A DNA stretch of 64,000 nt from Burkholderiaceae bacterium (lineage in GTDB: Bacteria > Pseudomonadota > Gammaproteobacteria > Burkholderiales > Burkholderiaceae_C), in NCBI GenBank assembly GCA_023150375.1, contig JAKLLA010000003.1:186001-250000 (forward strand), read 5' to 3'. Of the stretch, positions 8,210-55,918 are shown in pieces. The position numbers and the translations under genes are program-made. The notes under the pieces were generated by a model that was not told the origin of the DNA, made no database searches, and was given only the letters and a program-made list of their open reading frames with translations. Numbering within the stretch: position 1 is the first letter of the stretch; the number at the start of each line of letters is the position of its first letter.

Positions 8210-8973
8210 ATGCGACGGTCGAGCCGCGCAGCGCGACGCGGCTGGAGGCCGAGGGCCTGCAGAAGCGCTACGGCGCGCGCCTGGTGGTCAAGGACGTGCA
8301 TCTTGCGGTCGACGGCGGCGAGGTGGTCGGCCTGCTGGGTCCGAACGGCGCGGGCAAGACCACCAGCTTCTACATGCTGGTCGGCCTGGTGCGCGCCGAT
8401 GCCGGGCACATCCGCATCGACGGACGGGCGGTGGAGCGCCTGCCGATCCACCAGCGCGCCCGCCTCGGGCTGTCCTACCTGCCGCAGGAGGCCTCGATCT
8501 TCCGCCGCCTGACGGTGGAGGAGAACATCCGCGCCGTGCTCGAGCTGCAGCTCGACGAGCGGGGCCGGCCCTACTCCGAGGCCCGCATCCGCCAGCTGCT
8601 CGACGCGCTGCTGGCCGAGCTGTCCATCGAGCGGCTGCGCGACAGCCCGGCGCCGGCGCTCTCCGGCGGTGAACGGCGCCGCGTCGAGATCGCCCGGGCG
8701 CTGGCCACCCAGCCGCGCTTCATCCTGCTCGACGAGCCCTTTGCCGGGGTCGATCCGATCGCCGTGATCGAGATCCAGCGCATCATCGGCTTCCTGAAGG
8801 CGCGCGGCATCGGCGTGCTGATCACCGACCACAACGTGCGCGAGACGCTGGGCATCTGCGACCGCGCCTACATCATCAGCGAGGGCCGCGTGCTGGCCGA
8901 GGGCACGCCCACCGACATCGTCGAGAACCCCGACGTGCGCAAGGTCTACCTCGGCGAACACTTCCGCATGTGA
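8206..8973 (+). CDS. lptB: LptB, LPS export ABC ATPase
   Basis: Cytosolic ATPase that drives LPS extraction from the inner membrane with LptFG. It is 255 residues, a typical length. The Walker [10 protein letters not shown] is at about 45, the Q-loop is in [10 protein letters not shown] (a signature LptB feature), the ABC signature [15 protein letters not shown] is at about 151, and Walker B with [14 protein letters not shown] is at about 173. The H-loop lies in [10 protein letters not shown]. The GTG start overlaps the lptA stop. It is followed 79 bases later by rpoN, the conserved lptA-lptB-rpoN order of proteobacteria. Confidence 0.97.
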
Positions 8974-8998
8974 GCGCGCCGCCGCGCGTGCGTCTGGC

Positions 8999-9022
8999 CG
9001 ACCCCCATTTCGACCCCCATTT
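8999..9022 (+). repeat. Two tandem copies of a 12-bp unit before rpoN
   Basis: CGACCCCCATTT occurs twice in direct succession in the lptB-rpoN spacer, ending about 30 bases before the rpoN GTG. Function unknown. Confidence 0.6.
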
Positions 9023-9052
9023 CCTGCCTGTTCCGACCCCGAGGACCGACCC

Positions 9053-10690
9053 GTGAAACCCTCCCTGCAGGTCCGCCTGTCCCAGCACCTGGCGCTCACC
9101 CCGCAGCTGCAGCAATCGATCCGCCTGCTCCAGCTCTCCACGCTGGAGCTGCATCAGGAAGTCGAGCAGATGCTCGAGCAGAACCCCTTCCTGGAGGTGG
9201 ACGACGAGGGCGGCGCGTCGGGCGAGGCCGCTGCGGCGACCGAGCGGACCGAGGCGGCTGCAGCGGCGGGCAGCGCGACGGCCGACGAGGGCTGGGACAG
9301 CGGCAGCGGGACCGGCGAGGGCGGCAGCGTCGAGACCCCCGGCGCGGCCGAGGCCGAGCAGCCCGGCATGGAGCCGCTGGACTTCGACGGCGGGGCGCGC
9401 GACGAATGGGAGAACGGCACCGAGCGCGAGGACTTCGACGGCCGCGCCGAGGCGCCGGCCAGCCGCAACGCCGCACCCGAGGACGAGGACAGCGACTGGA
9501 CCGAACGCAACACGGTCGCGCCCAGCCTGGCCGATCACCTGCGCGAGCAGCTGCTGGGCATGCGCCTGGCGCCCGAGGACATGTTCCTGGTGGAGTCGCT
9601 GATCGACTCGCTCAACGAGGACGGCTACCTGGCCGACCCGCTCGAGGACGTGGCCGAGCGCCTGGCCATCGCCCTCGAGGAGGCCAACCCGGTCGACCCG
9701 GCCGGGCCCGCGCCGGACGATGCCGCGGTGGCCGAGGCGGCGGCGAGCCTGCGCGAGGACCTGCTCGACCGCCTGCGCTGCGCGCTGGGCTGGCTGCAGA
9801 ACCTGGAGCCGGCCGGCGTCGGCGCGCGCGACCTCTGCGAATGCCTGCAGCTGCAGCTGCGCGACCTGCCCGACAGTCCGGCCCGCGAGGCCGCCCTGGC
9901 GATCTGCCGGGGCCAGCTCGAGGCGCTGGCCCGGCGTGACCTCAAGCGCCTGATGGCCATCACCGGGACCGACGAGGACACCGTGCGCGAGGCACAGGCG
10001 CTGATCGTCGCCCTCGAGCCCAAGCCGGGGCGGCGCTTCACCCGCGCCGAGGCCAACATCGTCGTGCCCGACGTGATCGTGCAGAAGTCCGGCCGCGGCT
10101 GGAAGGTGGTGCTCAACCCGGACGTGATGCCCAAGCTGCGCATCAACGACCTGTACGCGCAGGTGCTGCGCCAGCACCGCAGCCAGCGCAGCGGCGACGA
10201 GGGCGGCGCCACCCTGTCGGCGCGGCTGCAGGAGGCGCGCTGGTTCGTCAAGAACATCCTGCAGCGCTTCGACACCATCCAGCGCGTCTCGCAGGCCATC
10301 GTCGAGCGGCAGAAGGGCTTCTTCACCCACGGCGAGATCGCGATGAAGCCGCTGGTGCTGCGCGAGATCGCCGACGAGCTGGGGCTGCACGAGTCGACCA
10401 TCTCGCGGGTGACGACGGCCAAGTACATGAACACGCCCTTCGGCACCTTCGAGCTGAAGTACTTCTTCGGCAGCTCGCTGAACACCGAAGCCGGCGGCAA
10501 CGCCAGCTCCACCGCGGTGCGTGCGCTGATCAAGCAGTTCGTCGCCGCCGAGGATGCGAAGAAGCCCCTGTCGGACAGCCAGCTCAGCCAGATGCTCGAG
10601 GAGCAGGGCATCCAGGTGGCGCGACGCACCGTGGCCAAGTACCGCGAGGCGCTGAAGATCGCCCCGGCCAACCTGCGCAAGGCGATCTGA
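9053..10690 (+). CDS. rpoN: RNA polymerase sigma-54 factor RpoN
   Basis: Alternative sigma factor that recognises -24/-12 promoters and needs enhancer-binding activators. Region I (residues 1-50) has the Gln/Leu-rich opening with QHLALTPQLQQSIRLLQLSTLEL. An unusually long acidic Region II (about 55-165, rich in Glu, Gly and Ala) follows, making the protein 545 residues against 477 in E. coli. Core-binding segments follow. The helix-turn-helix is at about 444 (LGLHESTISRVT), and the diagnostic RpoN box ARRTVAKYRE is at about 522. Start is the GTG at 9053; no in-frame ATG precedes it. A candidate RpoN-dependent promoter is present elsewhere in this window at 41569. Confidence 0.97.
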   Translation: MKPSLQVRLSQHLALTPQLQQSIRLLQLSTLELHQEVEQMLEQNPFLEVDDEGGASGEAAAATERTEAAAAAGSATADEGWDSGSGTGEGGSVETPGAAEAEQPGMEPLDFDGGARDEWENGTEREDFDGRAEAPASRNAAPEDEDSDWTERNTVAPSLADHLREQLLGMRLAPEDMFLVESLIDSLNEDGYLADPLEDVAERLAIALEEANPVDPAGPAPDDAAVAEAAASLREDLLDRLRCALGWLQNLEPAGVGARDLCECLQLQLRDLPDSPAREAALAICRGQLEALARRDLKRLMAITGTDEDTVREAQALIVALEPKPGRRFTRAEANIVVPDVIVQKSGRGWKVVLNPDVMPKLRINDLYAQVLRQHRSQRSGDEGGATLSARLQEARWFVKNILQRFDTIQRVSQAIVERQKGFFTHGEIAMKPLVLREIADELGLHESTISRVTTAKYMNTPFGTFELKYFFGSSLNTEAGGNASSTAVRALIKQFVAAEDAKKPLSDSQLSQMLEEQGIQVARRTVAKYREALKIAPANLRKAI

Positions 10691-40545: not shown

Positions 40546-40666
40546 ACTGCGCCGCCCGTCGCCGGCTTTGCGCAAACCGGGTCGAAAGTCCGCATGCGGT
40601 CGGCCTTAGCATCGCGTCCTTGCTGTCACCCCGGGCGTGCCAGGCTGGCCTGCCGCCCCCCATGCC

Positions 40667-41410
40667 ATGGCCGCCCAGTACCGCCTGTCCGTCTGCCCGC
40701 ACGACACCGCCAAGAACCTGGCGGGCTGGTTCCTGCTGAACACCTACCTGCAGCGCCGACTGGGTTTTTCGATGCACTTCGAGCCCAGCGACAACTTCAA
40801 CGTCGAGCGCGAGGCGGTGCTGGCCGGCGGGGCGGATTTCGTCTATGCCAACCCCTTCAGCGCCTGGCGCTTCCACCAGCAGCGCGGCTTCGTGCCGGTG
40901 GCCAAGCCGGTGGAGGTCTGCGACGAGACCCTGCTGGTGGCCCGCGCCGGCGCGGCGCCCGACCCGTCCCAGGGCCTGACGATCGCCTCGGCCACCGACA
41001 AGCTGATCGTGCACTTCCTGGGCCTGACCGTGCTGGACGAACTGGGCTGGCCGCTGTCGAAGATGCGCTACGAGTTCGTCGGCAACCACCTGAAGGCCGT
41101 GCAGGCCGTGCTGGGTGGCAAGGCCGACGCCGGCTTCGTCTTCAACGAGACCTGGCAGGGCCTGTCGGCGAGCAGCCGGTCCGCGCTGCAGGTGCTGGGC
41201 GAGACGCGCAGCCGCCAGGCCTGCCACTGCTTCTGCATCGGACCGGCGCTTCTGCCCCGCCTGTCCGAGATCCGGACAGTCCTGTGCAGCATGCACGAGG
41301 ACCCTGCCGGGCAACGGGTGCTCGAAGACCTGCGCTTCCGCGCTTTCGAGCCCCTCGAGGAGGGGGCACTGGCGGCGCTGAGCCACCTGCTGCCGCCCGA
41401 AGCGGCGTAG
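40667..41410 (+). CDS. PhnD-like binding protein lacking a signal peptide
   Basis: A 247-residue protein of the phosphate/phosphite/phosphonate periplasmic-binding family. YRLSVCPHDTAKNLAGWFLLNTYLQRRLG, DFVYANPFSAWRF, and AVLGGKADAGFVFNETW are the recognisable parts. No export signal precedes the domain, so it appears cytosolic. No PhnC or PhnE partners are adjacent. This suggests a ligand sensor rather than a transport component. A TAGCAT box at 40607-40612 is about 55 bases upstream of the ATG. Its 3' end contains one of the palindromes described for the downstream operon. Confidence 0.78.
   Translation: MAAQYRLSVCPHDTAKNLAGWFLLNTYLQRRLGFSMHFEPSDNFNVEREAVLAGGADFVYANPFSAWRFHQQRGFVPVAKPVEVCDETLLVARAGAAPDPSQGLTIASATDKLIVHFLGLTVLDELGWPLSKMRYEFVGNHLKAVQAVLGGKADAGFVFNETWQGLSASSRSALQVLGETRSRQACHCFCIGPALLPRLSEIRTVLCSMHEDPAGQRVLEDLRFRAFEPLEEGALAALSHLLPPEAA
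41262..41278. promoter_or_regulatory. Palindromic upstream site 1 (TGTCCG-N5-CGGACA)
   Basis: Perfect 6-5-6 inverted repeat (7 bp with flanking bases) inside the 3' end of the PhnD-like gene, about 325 bases before the predicted sigma-54 transcription start. Confidence 0.45.
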
Positions 41411-41412
41411 TT

Positions 41413-41429
41413 TGTCTGGAATTCGGACA
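41413..41429. promoter_or_regulatory. Palindromic upstream site 2 (TGTCTG-N5-CGGACA)
   Basis: Same half-sites and spacer length as site 1, with one mismatch between arms. It lies directly after the PhnD-like stop codon, about 175 bases upstream of the predicted transcription start, a normal position for an enhancer-binding activator. Confidence 0.5.
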
Positions 41430-41435
41430 ATGAAC

Positions 41436-41452
41436 TGTCCGGTTTCCGGTCG
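41436..41452. promoter_or_regulatory. Palindromic upstream site 3 (degenerate)
   Basis: TGTCCG-N5-CGGTCG, 23 bases downstream of the start of site 2. The right half matches at four of six positions. It also forms CGGACA-N6-TGTCCG with the right arm of site 2. Confidence 0.4.
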
Positions 41453-41568
41453 AGTTTGCCTGCCGCCGGCGGTGATGGCGCCGCCGAAACGGCGCTCGGG
41501 CCCGTCGTTCGGTCTGGGAGCCCGGCTTTTCGGCTGAAATCTCAGGGTTTGCACCGAGTCTGTGCATG

Positions 41569-41585
41569 TTGGCACGGCCTGTGCG
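41569..41585 (+). promoter_or_regulatory. Predicted sigma-54 (-24/-12) promoter
   Basis: TGGCACG (41570-41576) matches the -24 consensus fully. GTGC (41581-41584) matches three of four -12 positions. The GG and GC dinucleotides are 10 bases apart, as RpoN requires. The transcription start would be near 41596, giving a leader of about 74 bases to the binding-protein ATG. Confidence 0.65.
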
Positions 41586-41669
41586 TCAGAGGGGGGCACC
41601 GGTCCCGACCGGACCCTGATGACCTGCGCCCCGGCTCGCCGCGTTGGCGCCCCACGCTGGAGACATGCG

Positions 41670-42914
41670 ATGACCGACTGCCGAGAGACTGCTCCTTCCC
41701 TGTCCGTGGCCCGCCGCCGCGGCTTCACCCTGGCCGGGGTCGCCGCGGCCGCCCTGGCGGTCTGTGCCCCGCTGCCGGCACTGGCCCAGGCCAAGGGTGA
41801 GGTGAAGATCGCCATCATCGTCAGCAAGACCGGCCCGCTGGAGGGCTACGCGAAGCAGACCCTGACCGGTTTCGCCCTCGGCCTGCAGTACGCCACCGGC
41901 GGCACGATGACCGTGGCGGGCAAGAAGATCACCGTGATCGAGAAGGACGACCAGGGCAAGCCCGACGTGGGCAAGGCTGCGCTGGCCGCTGCCTACGCCG
42001 ACGACAAGGTGGATCTCGCGGTGGGCCCGGTGGCCTCGCCCGTGGCGCTGGCGATGCTGCCGGTGGCCGAGGAGTACAAGAAGATTCTGCTGGTCGAGCC
42101 CGCGGCGGCCGACTCGATCACCGGCGACAAGTGGAACAAGTACATCTTCCGCACCGGCCGCAACAGCAGCCAGGATGCCGCGGCCAACGCCGCCGCGCTG
42201 GACCAGCCGGGCAACGTGATCGCCATCCTGGCCAACGACAACGCCTTCGGCCGCGACGGCGTCAAGGCCGCCAAGGAGTTCACCAGGAAGGCCAAGATCG
42301 TCCACGAAGAGTACCTGCCGGTGGGCACCACCGACTTCACCGCCGGCCTGCAGCGCATCATCGACAAGCTCAAGGACCAGCCGGGCAAGAAGTACATCTC
42401 GGTGGCCTGGTCGGGCTCGCCCACGCCCTTCGGCAAAATCGCCGACCTCGAGCTCGAGAAGCGCTACGGCATCAAGCTGGCCACCGGCGGCAACATCCTG
42501 TCGGTGATGGTGCAGTACAAGAACTTCCCCGGCATGGAAGGCGCGCTGTACTACTACTTCGGCATCCCGAAGAACCCGGTCAACGAGTGGCTGGTGGCCA
42601 ACCACTACAAGCAGTTCAAGGCCCCGCCGGACTTCTTCACCGCCGGCGGCATGAGCGCAGCCATCGCCGTGGTCGAGGCGCTGAAGAAGACCAACGGCGA
42701 TACGAACACCAACAAGCTCATCGCCACGATGGAGGGCATGAGCTTCGAGACGCCCAAGGGCAAGATGACCTTCCGCAAGGAAGACCACCAGGCGATGCAG
42801 GACATGTACCACTTCCGCATCAAGAACGACCCGGCCTTCGCCTGGGGCGTGCCGGAGCTGGTGCGCGTCATCCCGGCCAGCGAGCTGAACATCCCGATCC
42901 GCAACCAGCGCTGA
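41670..42914 (+). CDS. ABC transporter substrate-binding protein, LivK type
   Basis: A 414-residue periplasmic binding protein of the branched-chain amino acid/amide/aromatic family (Peripla_BP_6). The export signal contains R-R-R-G-F-T-L, a good Tat motif, then ALAVCAPLPALAQA with cleavage near residue 38. The mature part has VKIAIIVSKTGPLEGYAKQTLTGF and KKITVIEKDDQGKPDVGKAAL. The family binds amino acids, short amides, urea or aromatic acids; the ligand here is unknown. The GGAGA site at 41659 is followed by a two-codon minimal frame (ATGCGATGA) overlapping the true ATG. First gene of the transporter operon. Confidence 0.92.
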   Translation: MTDCRETAPSLSVARRRGFTLAGVAAAALAVCAPLPALAQAKGEVKIAIIVSKTGPLEGYAKQTLTGFALGLQYATGGTMTVAGKKITVIEKDDQGKPDVGKAALAAAYADDKVDLAVGPVASPVALAMLPVAEEYKKILLVEPAAADSITGDKWNKYIFRTGRNSSQDAAANAAALDQPGNVIAILANDNAFGRDGVKAAKEFTRKAKIVHEEYLPVGTTDFTAGLQRIIDKLKDQPGKKYISVAWSGSPTPFGKIADLELEKRYGIKLATGGNILSVMVQYKNFPGMEGALYYYFGIPKNPVNEWLVANHYKQFKAPPDFFTAGGMSAAIAVVEALKKTNGDTNTNKLIATMEGMSFETPKGKMTFRKEDHQAMQDMYHFRIKNDPAFAWGVPELVRVIPASELNIPIRNQR

Positions 42915-43023: not shown

Positions 43024-43815
43024 ATGCTTGAAACCCAAGAACTGACCATCCGCTTCGGCGGCCATGTGGCGGTGGACCATGTGTCCTGCCGCTTCGAGCC
43101 GGGCACGCTCACGGCCATCGTCGGTCCGAACGGTGCGGGCAAGACCACCTACTTCAACCTGATCTCCGGCCAGCTGCCGGCCAGCGAGGGGCGGGTGCTG
43201 CTGGACGGCGAGGACCTCACCGCGCTGCCGGCGCCGCTGCGCACCCGGCGCGGGCTGGGGCGGGCCTTCCAGCTCACCCAGCTCTTCCCCAACCTGACGG
43301 TGCGCGAGAACGTGCGCCTGGCCATCCAGGCCCGCGAGGCCGGGCGGGGCAAGGCCGGGGGCATCGCGGGCATCGACTTCTTCCGGGTCTGGCTGGATCG
43401 CAAAGCCTGGATCGACGAGGCGCAGGCCATCCTCCAGCAGGTGCGCCTGGGCGACAAGCACGACGTGCACGCCAGCGCGCTGCCGCACGGGGACCAGCGC
43501 AAGCTGGAGGTGGCGCTGCTGATCGCGCTGGACCCGAAGGTCTTCATGTTCGACGAGCCCACCGCCGGCATGAGCGTGGACGAGGTGCCGCTGGTGCTGG
43601 ACCTGATCCGTGCCCTCAAGCAGCGCCGCGACGTGACCATCCTGCTGGTCGAGCACAAGATGGACGTGGTGCGCGAGCTCTCCGACCGCATCATCGTGCT
43701 GCACAACGGCCAGCTCGTGGCCGATGGCGAGCCGGCCGCGGTGATCGCCAGCCCCGTCGTCCAGCAGGCCTACCTCGGCATGGCCGCGCAAGAGCCGGAA
43801 GGAGCAGCCGCATGA
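43024..43815 (+). CDS. ABC transporter ATP-binding protein, LivG type
   Basis: A 263-residue cytosolic ATPase. The Walker [10 protein letters not shown] is at about 35, the Q-loop at AFQLTQLFPNLTV (about 82), and the LivG-style signature LPHGDQRKLEVA, replacing LSGGQ, at about 158. Walker B FMFDEPTAGMS is at about 176, and the H-loop is in LLVEHKMDVV. The start ATG at 43024 is preferred over a GTG three codons upstream. It pairs with the LivF-type ATPase downstream. Confidence 0.93.
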   Translation: MLETQELTIRFGGHVAVDHVSCRFEPGTLTAIVGPNGAGKTTYFNLISGQLPASEGRVLLDGEDLTALPAPLRTRRGLGRAFQLTQLFPNLTVRENVRLAIQAREAGRGKAGGIAGIDFFRVWLDRKAWIDEAQAILQQVRLGDKHDVHASALPHGDQRKLEVALLIALDPKVFMFDEPTAGMSVDEVPLVLDLIRALKQRRDVTILLVEHKMDVVRELSDRIIVLHNGQLVADGEPAAVIASPVVQQAYLGMAAQEPEGAAA

Positions 43816-43901: not shown

Positions 43902-44630
43902 ATGATCCTGGAATTGACGGGTGTGCACACCCACATCGGCGCGTACCACATCCTGCACGGCGTGGACTTCGCGGTACCGGCCGGCGAGGTGACGATGCTG
44001 CTGGGCCGCAATGGCGCGGGCAAGACCACCACGCTGCGCACGATCATGGGCCTGTGGCGCGTCTCGCAGGGGGACGTGCGCTTCCAGGGCCAGAGCCTGA
44101 AGGCCCTGGGTACGCCGGAGATCGCCCACCAGGGCATCGCCTACGTGCCGGAGAACATGGGCATCTTCACCGACCTGACGGTGAAGGAGAACATGGTGCT
44201 GGCGGCCCGCTCGGCGCGCAACGCCAGCGAGCTGGACACGCAGCGGCTGGAGTGGATCTTCGGCTTCTTCCCGGCGCTGAAGAAGTTCTGGCTCTACCCG
44301 GCCGGCAAGCTCAGCGGCGGGCAGAAGCAGATGCTGGCGGTGGCCCGCGCGATCTGCGAGCCGCGTGCGCTGATCCTGATCGACGAGCCCAGCAAGGGCC
44401 TGGCACCGTCGATCATCCAGAACCTGGTCACCGCCTTCGGCGAGCTCAAGCGCCAGAAGACCACCATCCTGCTGGTGGAGCAGAACTTCATGATGGCCCG
44501 TGCGCTGGGCGACCGCGTCGCGGTGATGGACAACGGCCGCGTGGTGCACACCGGTGACATGCGCGAGCTGGCCGAGGACGAGTCGATGCAGCAGCGCCTT
44601 CTGGGACTGTCTCTGGGAGCGCATCAGTGA
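43902..44630 (+). CDS. ABC transporter ATP-binding protein, LivF type
   Basis: A 242-residue cytosolic ATPase. The Walker A GRNGAGKTT is at about 38, signature LSGGQKQMLAVARA at about 141, Walker B LILIDEPSKGLAP at about 162, and H-loop in LLVEQNFMMA. The ATG at 43902 gives the canonical LivF N-terminus (ILELTGVHTHIGAY). An ATG at 43812, overlapping the upstream stop, would prefix 30 residues translated from a repeat element. Copy C of the intergenic repeat follows the stop. Confidence 0.93.
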   Translation: MILELTGVHTHIGAYHILHGVDFAVPAGEVTMLLGRNGAGKTTTLRTIMGLWRVSQGDVRFQGQSLKALGTPEIAHQGIAYVPENMGIFTDLTVKENMVLAARSARNASELDTQRLEWIFGFFPALKKFWLYPAGKLSGGQKQMLAVARAICEPRALILIDEPSKGLAPSIIQNLVTAFGELKRQKTTILLVEQNFMMARALGDRVAVMDNGRVVHTGDMRELAEDESMQQRLLGLSLGAHQ

Positions 44631-44705: not shown

Positions 44706-44745
44706 CGGCTGCTGGCCAGGCGCACCCCGGGAACTCCGATTCGTC

Positions 44746-45789
44746 ATGAACAGCATCGCTATGAACACCACCCCCGCGGCGGCTATCCCCAAGGCCGACT
44801 TCGACTGGAAGCCGCTGCTGATCCTGTTGGGGCTGATCGTGCTGGCGCTGCCGGCCGTCGGCAGCCCCTCGTCCTGGCTGACGCTGACGGCCGCCGGCAT
44901 CGCGATGGGGCTGATCATCTTCGTCATCGCCTCGGGCCTGACGCTGGTCTTCGGCCTGATGGACGTGCTGAACTTCGGCCACGGCGTGTTCATCGCGCTG
45001 GGTGCCTTCGTGGCCACCAGCGTGATGGGCGGCATGGCCGGCTGGGCGGGCGACAGCGGCTGGGCCCAGTTCGCCAGCATCTTTGCCGCGATGGCGGTGG
45101 CCATGGCGGTGGCCGGTGCGATCGGCTGGGCCTTCGAGCGCGTCATCGTGCGTCCGGTCTACGGCCTGCACCTCAAGCAGATCCTGATCACGATGGGCGG
45201 GATGATCGTGGGCGAGGAGATCATCAAGGTGATCTGGGGCCCGCTGCAGATCGCCCTGCCGCTGCCGGACGTGCTGCGCGGCGCCTGGTACCTGCCGATC
45301 GCGGACGGTCTGGGTGGGGGCGACGCGGCCATCGAGAAGTACCGCGTGCTGGCCGCGGCGATCGGCCTGCTGGTGTTCGCCGCGATGGGCCATGTGCTGG
45401 CGCGCACCAAGGTGGGCCTCTTGATCCGTGCCGGCGTGCAGGACCGGGAAATGGTCGAGAGCCTGGGCTACCGCATCCGGCGCCTCTTCGTCGGCGTGTT
45501 CGCGGTGGGTTCGGCACTGGCCGGCCTGGGCGGCGTGATGTGGGGCCTGTACCAGCAGAGCGTCACCCCGCAGATGGGCGCGCAGGTCAATGTGCTGATC
45601 TTCATCGTCATCATCATCGGCGGGCTGGGCTCGACGCTGGGCTGCTTCGTCGGCGCGCTGCTGGTGGGGCTGATGGCCAACTACACCGGCTTTCTGGCGC
45701 CCAAGGTGGCACTGTTCTCCAACATCGGCCTGATGGTGCTGGTGCTGCTGTGGCGCCCGCAGGGCCTCTATCCGGTCACGAACCGATGA
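44746..45789 (+). CDS. Branched-chain amino acid-type ABC permease, LivH-like
   Basis: A 347-residue inner-membrane permease with about nine helices. GLTLVFGLMDVLNFGHGVFIALGAF at about residues 63-87 and the coupling segment RTKVGLLIRAGVQDREMVESLG at about 222 identify LivH. A C-terminal IIGGLGSTLGCFVGALLVG block completes it. Forms the channel with the LivM-like subunit 13 bases downstream. The ATG at 44746 is used; the region before it is the repeat element. Confidence 0.92.
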   Translation: MNSIAMNTTPAAAIPKADFDWKPLLILLGLIVLALPAVGSPSSWLTLTAAGIAMGLIIFVIASGLTLVFGLMDVLNFGHGVFIALGAFVATSVMGGMAGWAGDSGWAQFASIFAAMAVAMAVAGAIGWAFERVIVRPVYGLHLKQILITMGGMIVGEEIIKVIWGPLQIALPLPDVLRGAWYLPIADGLGGGDAAIEKYRVLAAAIGLLVFAAMGHVLARTKVGLLIRAGVQDREMVESLGYRIRRLFVGVFAVGSALAGLGGVMWGLYQQSVTPQMGAQVNVLIFIVIIIGGLGSTLGCFVGALLVGLMANYTGFLAPKVALFSNIGLMVLVLLWRPQGLYPVTNR

Positions 45790-45802: not shown

Positions 45803-50042
<4,240 letters not shown>

Positions 50043-50113: not shown

Positions 50114-50143
50114 GGCCGGTTGCCTTCTCGAAAAGCACCCGCC

Positions 50144-53100
50144 ATGCCGTCCGCACCGACCGGTTCCCAGCTGCCCTCGCCGTCCACCACGTCGGGGGGC
50201 GGCGGCCTGATCCGCATCCGCGGTGCGCGCCAGCACAACCTCAAGAACCTCGATCTGGACATCCGCACCGGCGAGCTGACGGTGGTGACCGGGCCCAGCG
50301 GCTCGGGCAAGTCCAGCCTGGTGTTCGACACGCTGTATGCCGAGGGGCAGCGGCGCTACGTCGAGACCTTCAGCGCCTACGCGCGCCAGTTCCTTGACCG
50401 CATGGACCGCCCTGCGGTGGATGCGGTGGAGGGCGTGCCGCCGGCGATCGCCATCGACCAGACCAACCCGGTGCGCACCAGCCGCAGCACGGTCGGCACG
50501 ATGACCGAGCTGAACGACCACCTGAAGCTGCTGTTTGCGCGGGCCGCGCAGCTCTTCGACGCACAGACCGCGCAGCCGGTGCGCGAGGACGACCCGCAGA
50601 GCATCTGGGCCGACCTGGCCGCGCGCAGCGAGGTGGCCGGCGACCCGCGGCTGGTGGTGACCTTCCCGGTCGAGCTGCCGGCCGGCACCACGCCGGAGGA
50701 GATCGAGGGCTGGCTGGCGGCCTCGGGCTACACCCGCGTGCAGGCCGAGCGCGAGGTGGCCACGCCCACCGGGCCGCGCAAGGTGCTGGACGTGGTGGCG
50801 GATCGCTTCCGCTTCTCTGCCGCCGAGAAGGTGCGCGTGATCGAGGCGCTGGAGGCCTCGCTCGAGCGCGGTGGCGGGCGCTGCACGGTCTACGCCGCGA
50901 AGGAGGACGGTGAACCCGAGCTGTGGAGGTACAGCCGGGGCCTGCACTGCCCGGAGAGCGACCGGCGCTACAGCGCGCCGCAGCCGGCGATGTTCTCCTT
51001 CAACTCGGCCTACGGTGCCTGCGAGACCTGCCGCGGCTTCGGCCGGGTGATCGGGGTGGACTTCGGCCTGGTGATCCCGGACCACAAGAAGACGCTGCGC
51101 GGCGGCGCGATCAAGCCGCTGCAGACGCCGGCCTGGAAGGAGTGCCAGGACGACCTGATCAAGTACGCCGGCGACGCCGGCATCCCGCGAGACACCGCCT
51201 GGGCGCAGCTCACACCGGCGCAGAAGAGCTGGGTGATCGACGGCTCGCCGAACTGGAACGGCCAGTGGAACCAGCAGTGGTATGGCATCCGGCGCTTCTT
51301 CGAGTACCTCGAGAGCAAGGCCTACAAGATGCACATCCGCGTGCTCCTGTCCAAGTACCGCAGCTACACGCCCTGCGGCGACTGCGGTGGCGCGCGGCTC
51401 AAGACCGAATCGCTGCTGTGGCGGCTTGGCACGAAGGAGGGCGCGGATGCCGTGCTCGACCCGGCGAAACGCTTCCTGCCCAAGGGCGTGGGCTGGACCC
51501 GCGACGCGCTCGAAGCCCTGCCCGGCCTGGCGCTGCACGACCTGATGCTGCTGCCCATCCACCGGCTGCGGCGCTTCTTCGATGCCCTGACTTTTCCGTC
51601 TACGCTGCTGGACGAGGCGCTGCAGCTGCTGCTCGACGAGATCCGCACCCGGCTGAAGTACCTCTGCGACGTCGGCCTGGGCTACCTGACGCTGGACCGG
51701 CAGAGCCGCACGCTGTCGGGCGGCGAGGTGCAGCGCATCAACCTGACCACCGCCCTGGGCACCTCGCTGGTCAACACGCTGTTCGTGCTGGACGAGCCCA
51801 GCATCGGCCTGCACCCGCGCGACATGCACCGCATCGTCGAGGCGATGCTGCGCCTGCGCGACGCCGGCAACACGCTGGTGGTGGTGGAGCACGACCCGGC
51901 GGTGATGCTGGCGGCCGATCGCGTGATCGACCTCGGCCCCGGCCCGGGCACGCAGGGCGGGCGCATCGTCTTCGACGGCACCCCCGAGGAGCTGAAAGCC
52001 GCCGAGACGCTGACCGGCGCCTACCTGGGCGCGCGGCGCTCGATCGGCCTGGGCCTGAGCCGCCCGGTGCTGGACAGCACGCCGCGGCTGATCCTGGAGG
52101 GTGTGCGCGAGCACAACCTGCGCAACCTGACGGTGGAGTTCCCGTTGCAGCGCCTGGTCTGCGTGACCGGCGTGAGCGGCTCGGGCAAGTCCACGCTGAT
52201 CCAGGACGTGCTGGCGCCCGCGCTGGCGCGTCACTTCGGCCAGGCCACCGAAAGCCCGGGCGAGTTCGACCGCCTGCTGGGCGCGGACTGGCTGTCCGAT
52301 GCGGTGTTCGTGGACCAGAGCCCGATCGGCAAGACGGCGCGCTCCAACCCGGCCAGCTTCGTGGGCGCCTTCGACGCGGTGCGCGAGCTCTTCGCCGCGC
52401 TGCCCGCCGCCCGCGAGCGCAGCTACAGCGCCGGCATGTTCAGCTTCAACGCCGGCGACGGCCGCTGCCCCACCTGCGGCGGCTCGGGCTTCGAGCACGT
52501 CGAGATGCAGTTCCTCAGCGACGTCTACCTGCGCTGCCCGGACTGCGACGGCACCCGCTACCGCGCCGAGATCCGCGAGATCCAGCTGGAGCGCGGCGGC
52601 AAGGAACTCAGCATCGCCGACGTGCTGGAGCTCACCGTGGCCGACGCGGTGCGCCTGTTCGCCGCCGACCGCGAGGTGGTGCGCGCGCTGCAGCCGCTGG
52701 CCGACGTGGGGCTGGACTACGTCAAGCTCGGCCAGCCGGTGCCCACGCTGTCGGGCGGCGAGGCGCAGCGCCTGAAGCTGGCCGGCTTCCTCGCCGAGGC
52801 GGCGAAGAACGCCAGTGCCAGCCGCCAGAAGCTGGCCAAGAAGGGTACGCTCTTCCTCTTCGACGAGCCCACCACCGGCCTGCACTTCGACGACATCGCC
52901 AAGCTGATGCGCGCCTTCCGCAAGCTGCTGGAGGCGGGCCACTCGCTGCTGGTCATCGAGCACAACCTGGACGTGATCCGCGCGGCCGACTGGATCGTCG
53001 ACCTCGGCCCCGATGGCGGCGAGGACGGCGGCGAGCTGGTCGCCGAGGGCACGCCAGCGGACCTGCGCGCCCACCCGCGCAGCCACACCGGCGCGGCGCT

Positions 53101-55918
53101 GCGCGACTACGACACCAGCCTGGGCCAGGGCGGCCTGGCGGTCGAGGAAGGCCGGCCGCTGCAGGCCGTGGTCAAGGCGCGCCGCGACGAGGCGAAGCGC
53201 CTCACCGACAACCTGATCCAGATCGTCAACGCGCGCGAGCACAACCTCAAGGGCCTGAGCGTCGACATCCCGCGCGGCCGGTTCAGCGTGGTGACCGGCG
53301 TGTCGGGCTCGGGCAAGTCCACGCTGGCCTTCGACATCCTGTTCAACGAGGGCCAGCGCCGCTACCTGGAGAGCCTGAACGCCTACGCCCGCAGCATCGT
53401 GCAGCCGGCCGGCCGGCCGGAGGTGGACGCGGTCTACGGCATCCCGCCGACGGTGGCCATCGAGCAGCGCCTGTCGCGCGGCGGGCGCAAGTCCACCGTG
53501 GCCACCACCACCGAGGTCTGGCACTTCCTGCGCCTGCTCTACGTGAAGCTGGGGCTGCAGTACTGCCCGAAGTGCTCGGACTTCCACGCGCCGATGGACG
53601 AATGGGTGGCCGTGCAGCCGCAGACGCCCGAGCAGATCGCCGCGCAGCTGCTGCGCCCGGTGGAGGAGGGCGGCTACCGCGGCCAGCACATCGGCCTGCT
53701 GGCGCCGCTGGTGATCCACCGCAAGGGCCTGTACACGGATCTCGCCAAGTGGGCCAAGGGCAAGGGCTACACCCACCTGCGGGTGGATGGCGAGTTCCTG
53801 CCCGTGGCGCCCTGGCCCAAGCTGGACCGCTACAAGGAACACACCGTCGAGCTGCCGGTGGCCGACCTGGTGGTGGATGTGGCCCACGAGGCGCATCTGC
53901 GCGCCAAGCTGGCCGAGGTGCTCGAGCACGGCAAGGGCGTGCTGCACCTGCTCACCCCGCTCAAGGGCCTGCAGACCGCGATGGCCGCCGGCCAGAGCGG
54001 GCGCATCGGTCGCACCAAGGTGTTCTCGATCAAGCGCGCCTGCCCGGTCTGCGGCAGCAGCTACCCCGAGCTGGACCCGCGCATGTTCAGCTACAACAGC
54101 AAGCACGGCTGGTGCCCGGACTGCGTCGGCACCGGCCTGACGCTCACCAAGGAGCAGCGCAAGGCTCTGGACGACAGCCAGGCCGAGCGCGACCCTTCCG
54201 GCCGCGAGAAGACCTTCGCCGAGCCCGAGGTGGAGGACCTGGCCGACACGCCCTGCGGCAGCTGCGGCGGCGCGCGGCTGAATCCGGTGTCGCGCGCGGT
54301 GCGCTTTCGCGGCCGCTCGATCGCCGAGCTGGCGGCGCTGTCGGTCGACGACGCGGCGCGCTGGATCGCGAAACAGAAGCTCGACGGCCGCGAGGCGGCG
54401 ATTGCCCGCGACGTGATCGGCGAGATCCGCAGCCGCCTGAGCTTCCTGGCCGAGGTGGGCCTGGGCTACCTGACGCTGGACCGCGCCGCGCCCACGCTCT
54501 CGGGCGGCGAGGCGCAGCGCATCCGCCTGGCCGCGCAGCTGGGCAGCCACCTGCAGGGCGTGTGCTACGTGCTGGACGAGCCGACCATCGGCCTGCACCC
54601 GCGTGACAACCAGGTGCTGCTGGATGCGCTGCACAAGCTCGGGGCGGCGGGCAACACGCTGGTGGTGGTGGAGCACGACGAGGACACCATCCGCCGCGCC
54701 GACCACATCATCGACATCGGCCCCGGCGCGGGCAAGCGAGGGGGCCGGATCGTGGCGCAGGGGACCGCGGCCGAGCTGATGGCGCAGGCCGACTCGATCA
54801 CCGGCCGCTTCCTCAACGCGCCGCTGAAGCACCCGCTCCAGCCCCGCCGGCCGGTGGACGCCGACACGCCCGGCCTGACCCTGCGCGGTGCGAACCTGCA
54901 CAACCTCCAGGCGGTGGACGTGGAGATCCCGCTGGCCCGGCTGGTGGCGGTGACGGGGGTGTCCGGCTCCGGCAAGTCCACGCTGGCGCGCGACGTGCTG
55001 CTGGCCAACGTGCAGGCCATCGTCGCGCACAGGATGCTGGGCAGGAAGGCCGAGACGACGCCCCGCCCGGCCTGGGTGGGCTGCAGCGGGCTGGAGGGCT
55101 GGAGCAACGTCGACCGGGTGCTGGAGGTGGACCAGACGCCCATCGGCAAGACGCCGCGCTCCTGCCCGGCCACCTACATCGGCTTCTGGGACCTCATCCG
55201 CAAGCTCTTCACCGAGACGCTGGAGGCCAAGGCGCGCGGCTACGCCGCCAACCGCTTCTCCTTCAACACGGGCGCAGGACGCTGCCCGGCCTGTGAGGGC
55301 CAAGGGATGCGCACCATCGAGATGGCCTTCCTGCCCGACGTCAAGGTGCCCTGCGACCAGTGCCACGGTGCGCGCTTCAACCCGGAGACGCTGGCCGTCA
55401 CCTGGCGCGGCCGGAGCATCGGCGACGTGCTGCGCATGGAGGTGGACGAGGCGGTGGAGTTCTTCGCCTCCATGCCCGGCATCGCCCACCCGCTGAAGCT
55501 GCTGCAGGACGTGGGCCTGGGCTACCTGACGCTGGGCCAGCCCAGCCCGACGCTGTCAGGCGGCGAGGCGCAGCGCATCAAGCTGGTGACCGAACTCAGC
55601 AAGGTGCGCGACGACATCGGCCGGCGGGGCCAGAAGGCCCCGCACACGCTCTACGTGCTCGACGAGCCGACGGTCGGCCTGCACATGGCCGACGTGGAGA
55701 AGCTCATCCGCGTGCTGCATCGCCTGGTCGACGCCGGCCACAGCGTGGTGGTGATCGAGCACGACCTGGACGTGATCGCCGAGGCCGACTGGGTCGTCGA
55801 CCTGGGGCCGGAGGGCGGCACCGGCGGCGGGCGGGTGGTGGTCTGCGGCACGCCGGAGGCGGTGGTGAAGAGCCGCAGCCACACGGGGGTGGCGTTGAAA
55901 CCCGTCCTGAAGCGCTGA
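50144..55918 (+). CDS. Double-length UvrA-like protein with four ABC ATPase domains
   Basis: A 1924-residue protein, twice the normal UvrA length (about 940). It consists of two complete UvrA-like units joined near residue 1000. Walker A motifs (GPSGSGKSS, then GVSGSGKST three times) are at about 49, 676, 1052 and 1604; LSGGE signatures are at about 524, 867, 1452 and 1804. In unit 1 the first zinc module has lost a Cys (C-P-E-S instead of C-x-x-C) while its CxxC partner ACETC is kept. The corresponding site in unit 2 (ACPVC and WCPDC) is intact, as are the second modules in both units (CPTC...CPDC and CPAC...CDQC). UvrA dimerises to load UvrB on damaged DNA; a tandem chain would be a built-in dimer. 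The ordinary uvrA gene is presumably elsewhere. Confidence 0.92.

Follow-up and report, generated by a model that had tools for sequence, protein, structure and literature searches.

The window analyzed here is a stretch of 64,000 nucleotides (G000:C19:186001-250000) from a 4.63 Mb genome in 43 contigs. It contains the gene for sigma-54 and a predicted ABC importer operon preceded by a promoter-like element and three inverted repeats. Positions below are those of the window, and repeat centers are counted from a predicted start assumed to lie about 12 bases past the GC of the -24/-12 element.

8879..10690, + strand: rpoN, encoding sigma-54, with AID, CBD, and DBD domains (frame range, start not fixed)
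41262..41278, + strand: enhancer-like perfect inverted repeat TGTCCGAGATCCGGACA, center about -326, inside the 3' end of a PhnD-like gene
41413..41429, + strand: enhancer-like inverted repeat TGTCTGGAATTCGGACA, center about -175, an exact TGTCYG-N5-CRGACA
41436..41452, + strand: enhancer-like inverted repeat TGTCCGGTTTCCGGTCG, center about -152, 10/12 to consensus
41570..41584, + strand: -24/-12 (sigma-54) element TGGCACG-N4-GTGC, TGGCACGGCCTGTGC, GG-N10-GC
41670..42914, + strand: substrate-binding protein of a Liv/Urt-type ABC importer (Peripla_BP_6)
43024..43815, + strand: LivG/UrtD-type ATPase (start not fixed)
43902..44630, + strand: LivF/UrtE-type ATPase (start not fixed)
44743..45789, + strand: LivH/UrtB-type permease (start not fixed)
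45803..46876, + strand: LivM/UrtC-type permease (from a family search)
46978..47832, + strand: alpha/beta hydrolase, 3' of LivM (from a family search)

Judged by its family matches, the importer is of the same transporter class as Liv/Urt. The named families point to no substrate, since every operon protein scores below the curated cut-offs for urea and branched-chain amino acid transport (UrtA, 65 of 493 bits; LivK-type, 63 of 477; UrtD, 197 of 304; UrtE, 213 of 286; UrtB, 150 of 250; UrtC, 115 of 296). The predicted operon would comprise the binding protein, LivG, LivF, LivH, LivM, and probably the hydrolase. Among 80 named orthologous loci (the best 80 of 579), a hydrolase homolog of at least 64% identity is present at 45, and a hydrolase follows LivM at 40 of the 51 that have LivM and at least 900 bases beyond it. 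Further downstream, after this hydrolase, lies an Old-yellow-enzyme/FadH-type oxidoreductase gene (48000-50000, + strand), and a 1,932-codon frame (50120-55915, + strand) carries UvrA interaction and UvrA DNA-binding domains in separate parts, together with several ATP-binding motifs; it is possibly a double-length UvrA. The genome encodes sigma-54, its sole Sigma54_DBD match being the window's rpoN, some 31 kb away from the importer's promoter element.

Upstream of the importer, a PhnD-like binding protein (Phosphonate-bd) is encoded at 40664-41410 on the + strand. It is perhaps cytoplasmic, as no obvious signal peptide is seen by eye, and has no solved homolog at E 0.01. A 73% match occupies the same place in the nearest relative, G012. 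We considered this gene as part of the system and dropped it: among the 96 loci compared (see below), some of them with only 1.5 kb of upstream sequence, it was matched only in the window and in G012, and it therefore looks like a local neighbor. A weak terminator-like stem (41388-41407; one found in the scan versus 0.3 expected) ends the gene, and its T-rich tail reaches into the 41413 repeat.

The initial annotation had proposed control of the importer by RpoN and an AAA+ enhancer-binding protein, citing a TGGCACG-N4-GTGC element with 10-base GG-to-GC spacing 86 bases before the transporter's ATG. The element is found at 41570-41584, near consensus and with GG and GC 10 bases apart; it does precede the ATG (41670), although by 85 bases rather than 86. 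The three 17-bp sites that had been placed at about -325, -175, and -152 are likewise present, with computed centers of -326, -175, and -152, and the perfect palindrome does fall within the PhnD-like open reading frame, which ends at 41410. The 41413 and 41436 repeats are offset by 23 bp, or about two helical turns. As for the sigma-70 promoter that had been named as the alternative, a consensus scan of 41200-41720 returned none.

Counts within this single genome speak less clearly. The repeat pattern matches the window six times (one repeat being counted on both strands) versus a shuffle mean of 2.24, and at least six matches occurred in 3 of 100 shuffles of the window; the -24/-12 string matches once versus a mean of 0.21, with 18 of 100 shuffles having one. 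Such window-only counts are modest evidence. Across the 4.63 Mb, TGTCYG-N5-CRGACA has two exact matches, 151 bp apart and both in this control region. At up to one mismatch it occurs at 12 places, fewer than the 37 for a reversed-pattern control, such that the one-mismatch site shows no genome-wide enrichment. The search for further TGTCCG-type pairs that had been suggested did recover an exact TGTCYG-N5-CRGACA pair, but both matches lie only here, and the idea of a regulon defined by extra sites in this genome was dropped.

To gauge conservation, we assembled 96 loci, comprising the 80 named orthologous loci (the best 80 of 579 listed) and 16 from a genome search, the window's own included. 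We excluded six loci at which we were unable to fix the start or delimit the region before it (L036, L042, L044, L069, L090, and L093), leaving 90. A site was defined as a match to at least 10/12 consensus positions and a promoter element as a score of at least 6/7 within the last 160 bases, and both were compared with 100 dinucleotide shuffles. At least one repeat was found at 73/90 loci, window included (shuffle mean, 5.0; maximum, 12), and at least two at 48/90 (mean, 0.15; maximum, 2), for a total of 148 repeats (mean, 5.2; maximum, 12). The -24/-12 element was found at 70/90 loci, again including the window (mean, 1.6; maximum, 5). In the coding control, the repeat appeared at 0/90 loci and a promoter-like element at 2/90. 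The consensus derived from 145 sites, with the window left out, is TGTCTGAAATTCAGACA. When upstream regions were grouped by alignability (blastn E 1e-8), 28 groups resulted, one of which holds 58/90 members; the window's upstream region stands alone as a separate group. A majority of members carry sites in 19/28 groups and the promoter element in 21/28. The control region thus shows multiple upstream inverted repeats conserved together with the promoter element. Comparison of the spacer across relatives had been put forward as a check, and a lack of conservation of the palindromes or GG/GC elements as a refutation; over the 90 loci, both kinds of element proved to be conserved.

At loci with a promoter element, 108/124 sites lie at -200 to -80, 7/124 beyond -200, and 9 at +22 or +23. 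The last group (L025, L026, L027, L029, L031, L032, L065, L076, and L103) carries a repeat of at least 10/12 at +22/+23 beside or replacing upstream sites, possibly as a self-limiting site. Gene order is unchanged in G012, and each of the four elements keeps its place there while the intervening sequence has diverged: the aligned counterpart of the -24/-12 element is TGGCATGCGGTCTGC, and the counterparts of the 41436, 41413, and 41262 sites match at 10/12, only 9/12, and 11/12, respectively. At the 41262-type site, some encoded residues differ in G012 (read by eye).

The genome has 20 Sigma54_activat matches, 12 of them strong. None of the 20 falls within C19:186001-250000, in agreement with the initial annotation, which had seen no such activator in the window; the genome-wide search for AAA+ activators that it proposed yielded the 12 strong matches, including a candidate on contig C20. 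Gene order in relatives points to this candidate. In Acidovorax sp. GW101-3H11 (L047) and in L024, an enhancer-binding protein gene immediately precedes the binding-protein gene. A homolog of this activator (at least 55% identity) is found near the transporter at 64/90 loci; in 64/64 it precedes the transporter in the same orientation at a distance of no more than 2.5 kb, and at 49 of those 64 it lies within 600 bases. The two proteins compared are as follows.

G000:C20:57708-59207: ortholog of the relatives' PAS-AAA+-Fis enhancer-binding protein (the C20 protein), on another contig and unlinked to the operon
L047:3203-4789: enhancer-binding protein of L047

The C20 protein matches the L047 activator at 62% over 491 residues (566 bits), the best among the 12 strong enhancer-binding proteins; the next-best protein of this genome scores 228 bits. 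When the genome was searched with the C20 protein at E 1e-100 or better, only the protein itself was retrieved. It contains PF00158 (AAA+ sigma-54 interaction domain), a GAYTGA loop, and HTH_8 (Fis-type HTH), as expected of an enhancer-binding protein. The L047 ortholog has PAS_4 above cut-off, and the region of the C20 protein that aligns with it gave no such call. A domain search called no receiver domain in the L047 ortholog. Of 27 NCBIfam-named regulator families matched, the C20 protein is below cut-off for all 25 shown, including the curated cut-offs for NtrC, NorR, NifA, PrpR, and TyrR; its best E-value is for PrdR, at 357 bits versus a cut-off of 795. On these grounds, the ortholog of the relatives' transporter-linked activator is a strong candidate for the operon's regulator. 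The initial annotation had assigned neither regulator nor substrate; for the regulator, this protein is now proposed.

The C20 gene is flanked on one side by an O-acetylhomoserine-sulfhydrylase-like gene and on the other by ribosomal protein genes (translations, by eye), and no linked target was seen beside it. Autoregulation was considered and set aside: there is no convincing nearby site, and three 10/12 matches within the surrounding 20 kb are each more than 4 kb off. The G012 activator is likewise unlinked (C1:809 kb versus 289 kb for the transporter). Across eight relatives, two of which have none, there are 8 exact copies of TGTCTG-N5-CAGACR, and by coordinates 7 of these copies precede this transporter gene. 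Because these exact sites almost all precede this operon, the activator appears to be near single-target, which makes the importer's substrate, or something produced from it, the likely signal.

The activator, the repeats, and the transporter also tend to occur together. A binding protein of at least 69% identity is present in 16/60 genomes (own included), 15 of which have the activator at 63% identity or more, whereas in the other 44 genomes only two activator matches, each at 55%, reach E 1e-100. The sixteenth genome, G010, encodes the binding protein with no activator at that identity, no 10/12 site, and no promoter element; LivG, LivM, and the hydrolase were unmatched within the 15 kb taken. 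For 22 loci, 18 of them picked because no adjacent activator had been seen, whole genomes were searched for the activator, which was present in 15 and absent from 7. At a laxer threshold, 6 of these 7 genomes have other enhancer-binding proteins. Repeats of at least 10/12 were found at 73/82 loci with the activator in the genome versus 0/8 without it, the promoter element at 77/82 versus 1/8, and either element at 81/82 versus 1/8; 9/82 activator-bearing loci lack a 10/12 site. Fisher P values for co-occurrence range from 8e-9 to 3e-6 and overstate independence, since the loci are related (58/90 in one alignable group) and are not independent trials. Seven of the 8 activator-less loci come from genomes of 1.9 to 4.7 Mb whose completeness is unstated, so that absence of the activator may reflect incomplete assembly. 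At one locus, L084, the promoter element is complete and three sites match at 9/12, with no activator found. Of the 18 loci scored as having the activator elsewhere, L104, L105, L106, and L111 in fact have it within about 3 kb, the available stretch being merely short. At six loci (L021, L022, L023, L081, L087, and L092; drafts only), the transporter is retained at about 78 to 90% identity (best segment), and the activator, 10/12 repeats, and promoter element are all absent; these are possible cases of natural rewiring.

We consider it likely, at a probability of about 0.82, that 41262-41584 is the control region of a sigma-54 operon whose repeats are bound by the C20 ortholog of the relatives' PAS-AAA+-Fis activator. 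This reading draws on features read from sequence: the elements and their conservation, and an activator that is present in the genome, is linked to the transporter in relatives, and co-occurs with the sites. Sigma-54 RNA polymerase would sit on TGGCACG-N4-GTGC at 41570-41584, and dimers of the C20 activator would occupy the 17-bp repeats at 41413, 41436, and perhaps 41262. The main role probably falls to the -152 and -175 sites, and that at -326 is probably accessory. A putative PAS domain would sense the transported compound or its metabolite; sensing would then drive assembly of the AAA+ ring, looping, and opening of the promoter. The operon would thus probably be substrate responsive, with a near single-target activator. 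The original proposal of RpoN plus an AAA+ enhancer-binding protein is supported by the conservation of the elements and their co-occurrence with one such protein.

Three other readings were weighed. The C20 gene is unlinked to the operon here and is one of 12 strong Sigma54_activat matches, so another enhancer-binding protein could take the repeats at a genuine sigma-54 promoter, leaving the C20 protein to regulate something else. We regard this as quite unlikely, given that the C20 ortholog is the very protein found upstream of the transporter at 64/90 loci and that its presence tracks the repeats. Of the 7 genomes lacking it, 6 have other enhancer-binding proteins, yet 10/12 sites occur at 0/7 of the loci. 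The repeats might instead be operators of an ordinary GntR, TetR, or LysR type regulator acting independently of sigma-54, as the operator-like position of the +22 or +23 repeat at nine loci would allow. An ordinary operator fits poorly with 108/124 sites lying at -200 to -80 and 48/90 loci having at least two, and the presence of the -24/-12 element and of the sites follows that of an enhancer-binding protein, which makes this reading less likely still.

The last possibility, that the motifs arose by chance in GC-rich DNA and the operon uses another promoter, gains something from the weak single-genome statistics, in which window-only counts are mildly unusual and the one-mismatch genome count falls under its control. 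Conservation in relatives places the motifs far above chance, and comparison with the shuffles and the coding control contradicts a chance origin; so does G012, which keeps the element positions while the sequence between the sites has diverged. After the cross-locus comparison, we rejected this reading as largely refuted and hardly credible.

Clues to the substrate of the importer conflict. The window's binding protein has two close homologs of solved structure from Rhodopseudomonas, 3n0x (508 bits) and 3nnd (490 bits), and no ligand for either was found in the literature searched. Among the 80 named loci (the best 80 of 579), a PHB-depolymerase-like esterase gene lies directly 3' of the binding-protein gene at 8 (L047, L054, L058, L060, L072, L074, L077, and L082; the L047 esterase matches 2d80 at 223 bits), a second hydrolase family lies 5' of the transporter at 8, tripartite tricarboxylate-type genes, recognized by eye, lie upstream at up to 26, and malonyl-CoA decarboxylase and AMP-binding acyl-CoA synthetase families occur at 8 loci each (Pfam in L024 and L023, respectively). 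Because esterase and hydrolase genes adjoin the transporter, this gene content suggests an ester-derived small acid, with 3-hydroxybutyrate as the first candidate; 3-hydroxybutyrate or its oligomers is a guess to which we give about one chance in three, as malonate-type and tricarboxylate-type neighbors are also common. In a Rhodopseudomonas ligand survey (PMC3223731), the ligands of such binding proteins are described as hydrophobic acids or other amino acids, not leucine, isoleucine, or valine, and Liv in a name therefore does not reveal the substrate.

Among known systems, the mechanism proposed here is standard, and no family in the library searched gives the regulator a name. The NtrC box is a 17-bp inverted repeat with an N5 center and the half-site TGCACC; the sites here share its 17-bp/N5 design, the half-site differs, and in the NtrC family, where the cut-off is 558.6 bits, the C20 protein reaches 308.8. 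The nearest characterized arrangement found is that of AauR, a Fis-type enhancer-binding protein that, with RpoN, controls aatJ-aatQMP, an acidic amino acid ABC transporter of Pseudomonas (PMC7962211). There, a -12/-24 promoter has two consensus-like sites upstream, and in PAO1 the site is reported for no other gene (PMC7962211); the likeness lies in an enhancer-binding protein and RpoN acting on an ABC importer as a single site-bearing target. The AauR site, TTCGG-N4-CCGAA, differs from TGTCYG-N5-CRGACA, AauR belongs to the two-component system AauSR whereas the L047 ortholog has a PAS domain with no receiver called, and the importer here is of the Liv/Urt class, unlike aatJ-aatQMP. GcsR (glycine cleavage, Pseudomonas aeruginosa) offers a precedent for three repeats before one RpoN promoter and has one direct target operon; it differs in being TyrR-like, in its 18-bp site (TGTAACG-N4-CGTTCCG), and in controlling enzymes rather than a transporter (PMC4894688). 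PA2005, mentioned in one sentence and cited in PMC13390443, is an enhancer-binding protein acting with RpoN in (R)-3-hydroxybutyrate metabolism in P. aeruginosa; the likeness, drawn by description only, is to small-acid metabolism and bears on the substrate guess. The four site strings had no match in the literature searched, and nothing on this system was found there, judged by titles and abstract beginnings.

A more speculative picture, which we hold to be improbable as a whole, is that of an unnamed Burkholderiales clade of PAS enhancer-binding proteins with this importer as near-sole target, functional though unlinked in some lineages, sensing an ester-derived small acid such as 3-hydroxybutyrate, and at some loci using a second, self-limiting site at about +22. 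If it were true, genomes with the transporter in which the protein and the sites have both been lost would be natural examples of rewiring. The main reading would itself yield a regulator without a family name in many Burkholderiales genomes, along with its likely binding motif, its target, and a testable link between sensor and substrate. It would also illustrate a way to match an orphan sigma-54 promoter with its activator even when the two genes are unlinked.
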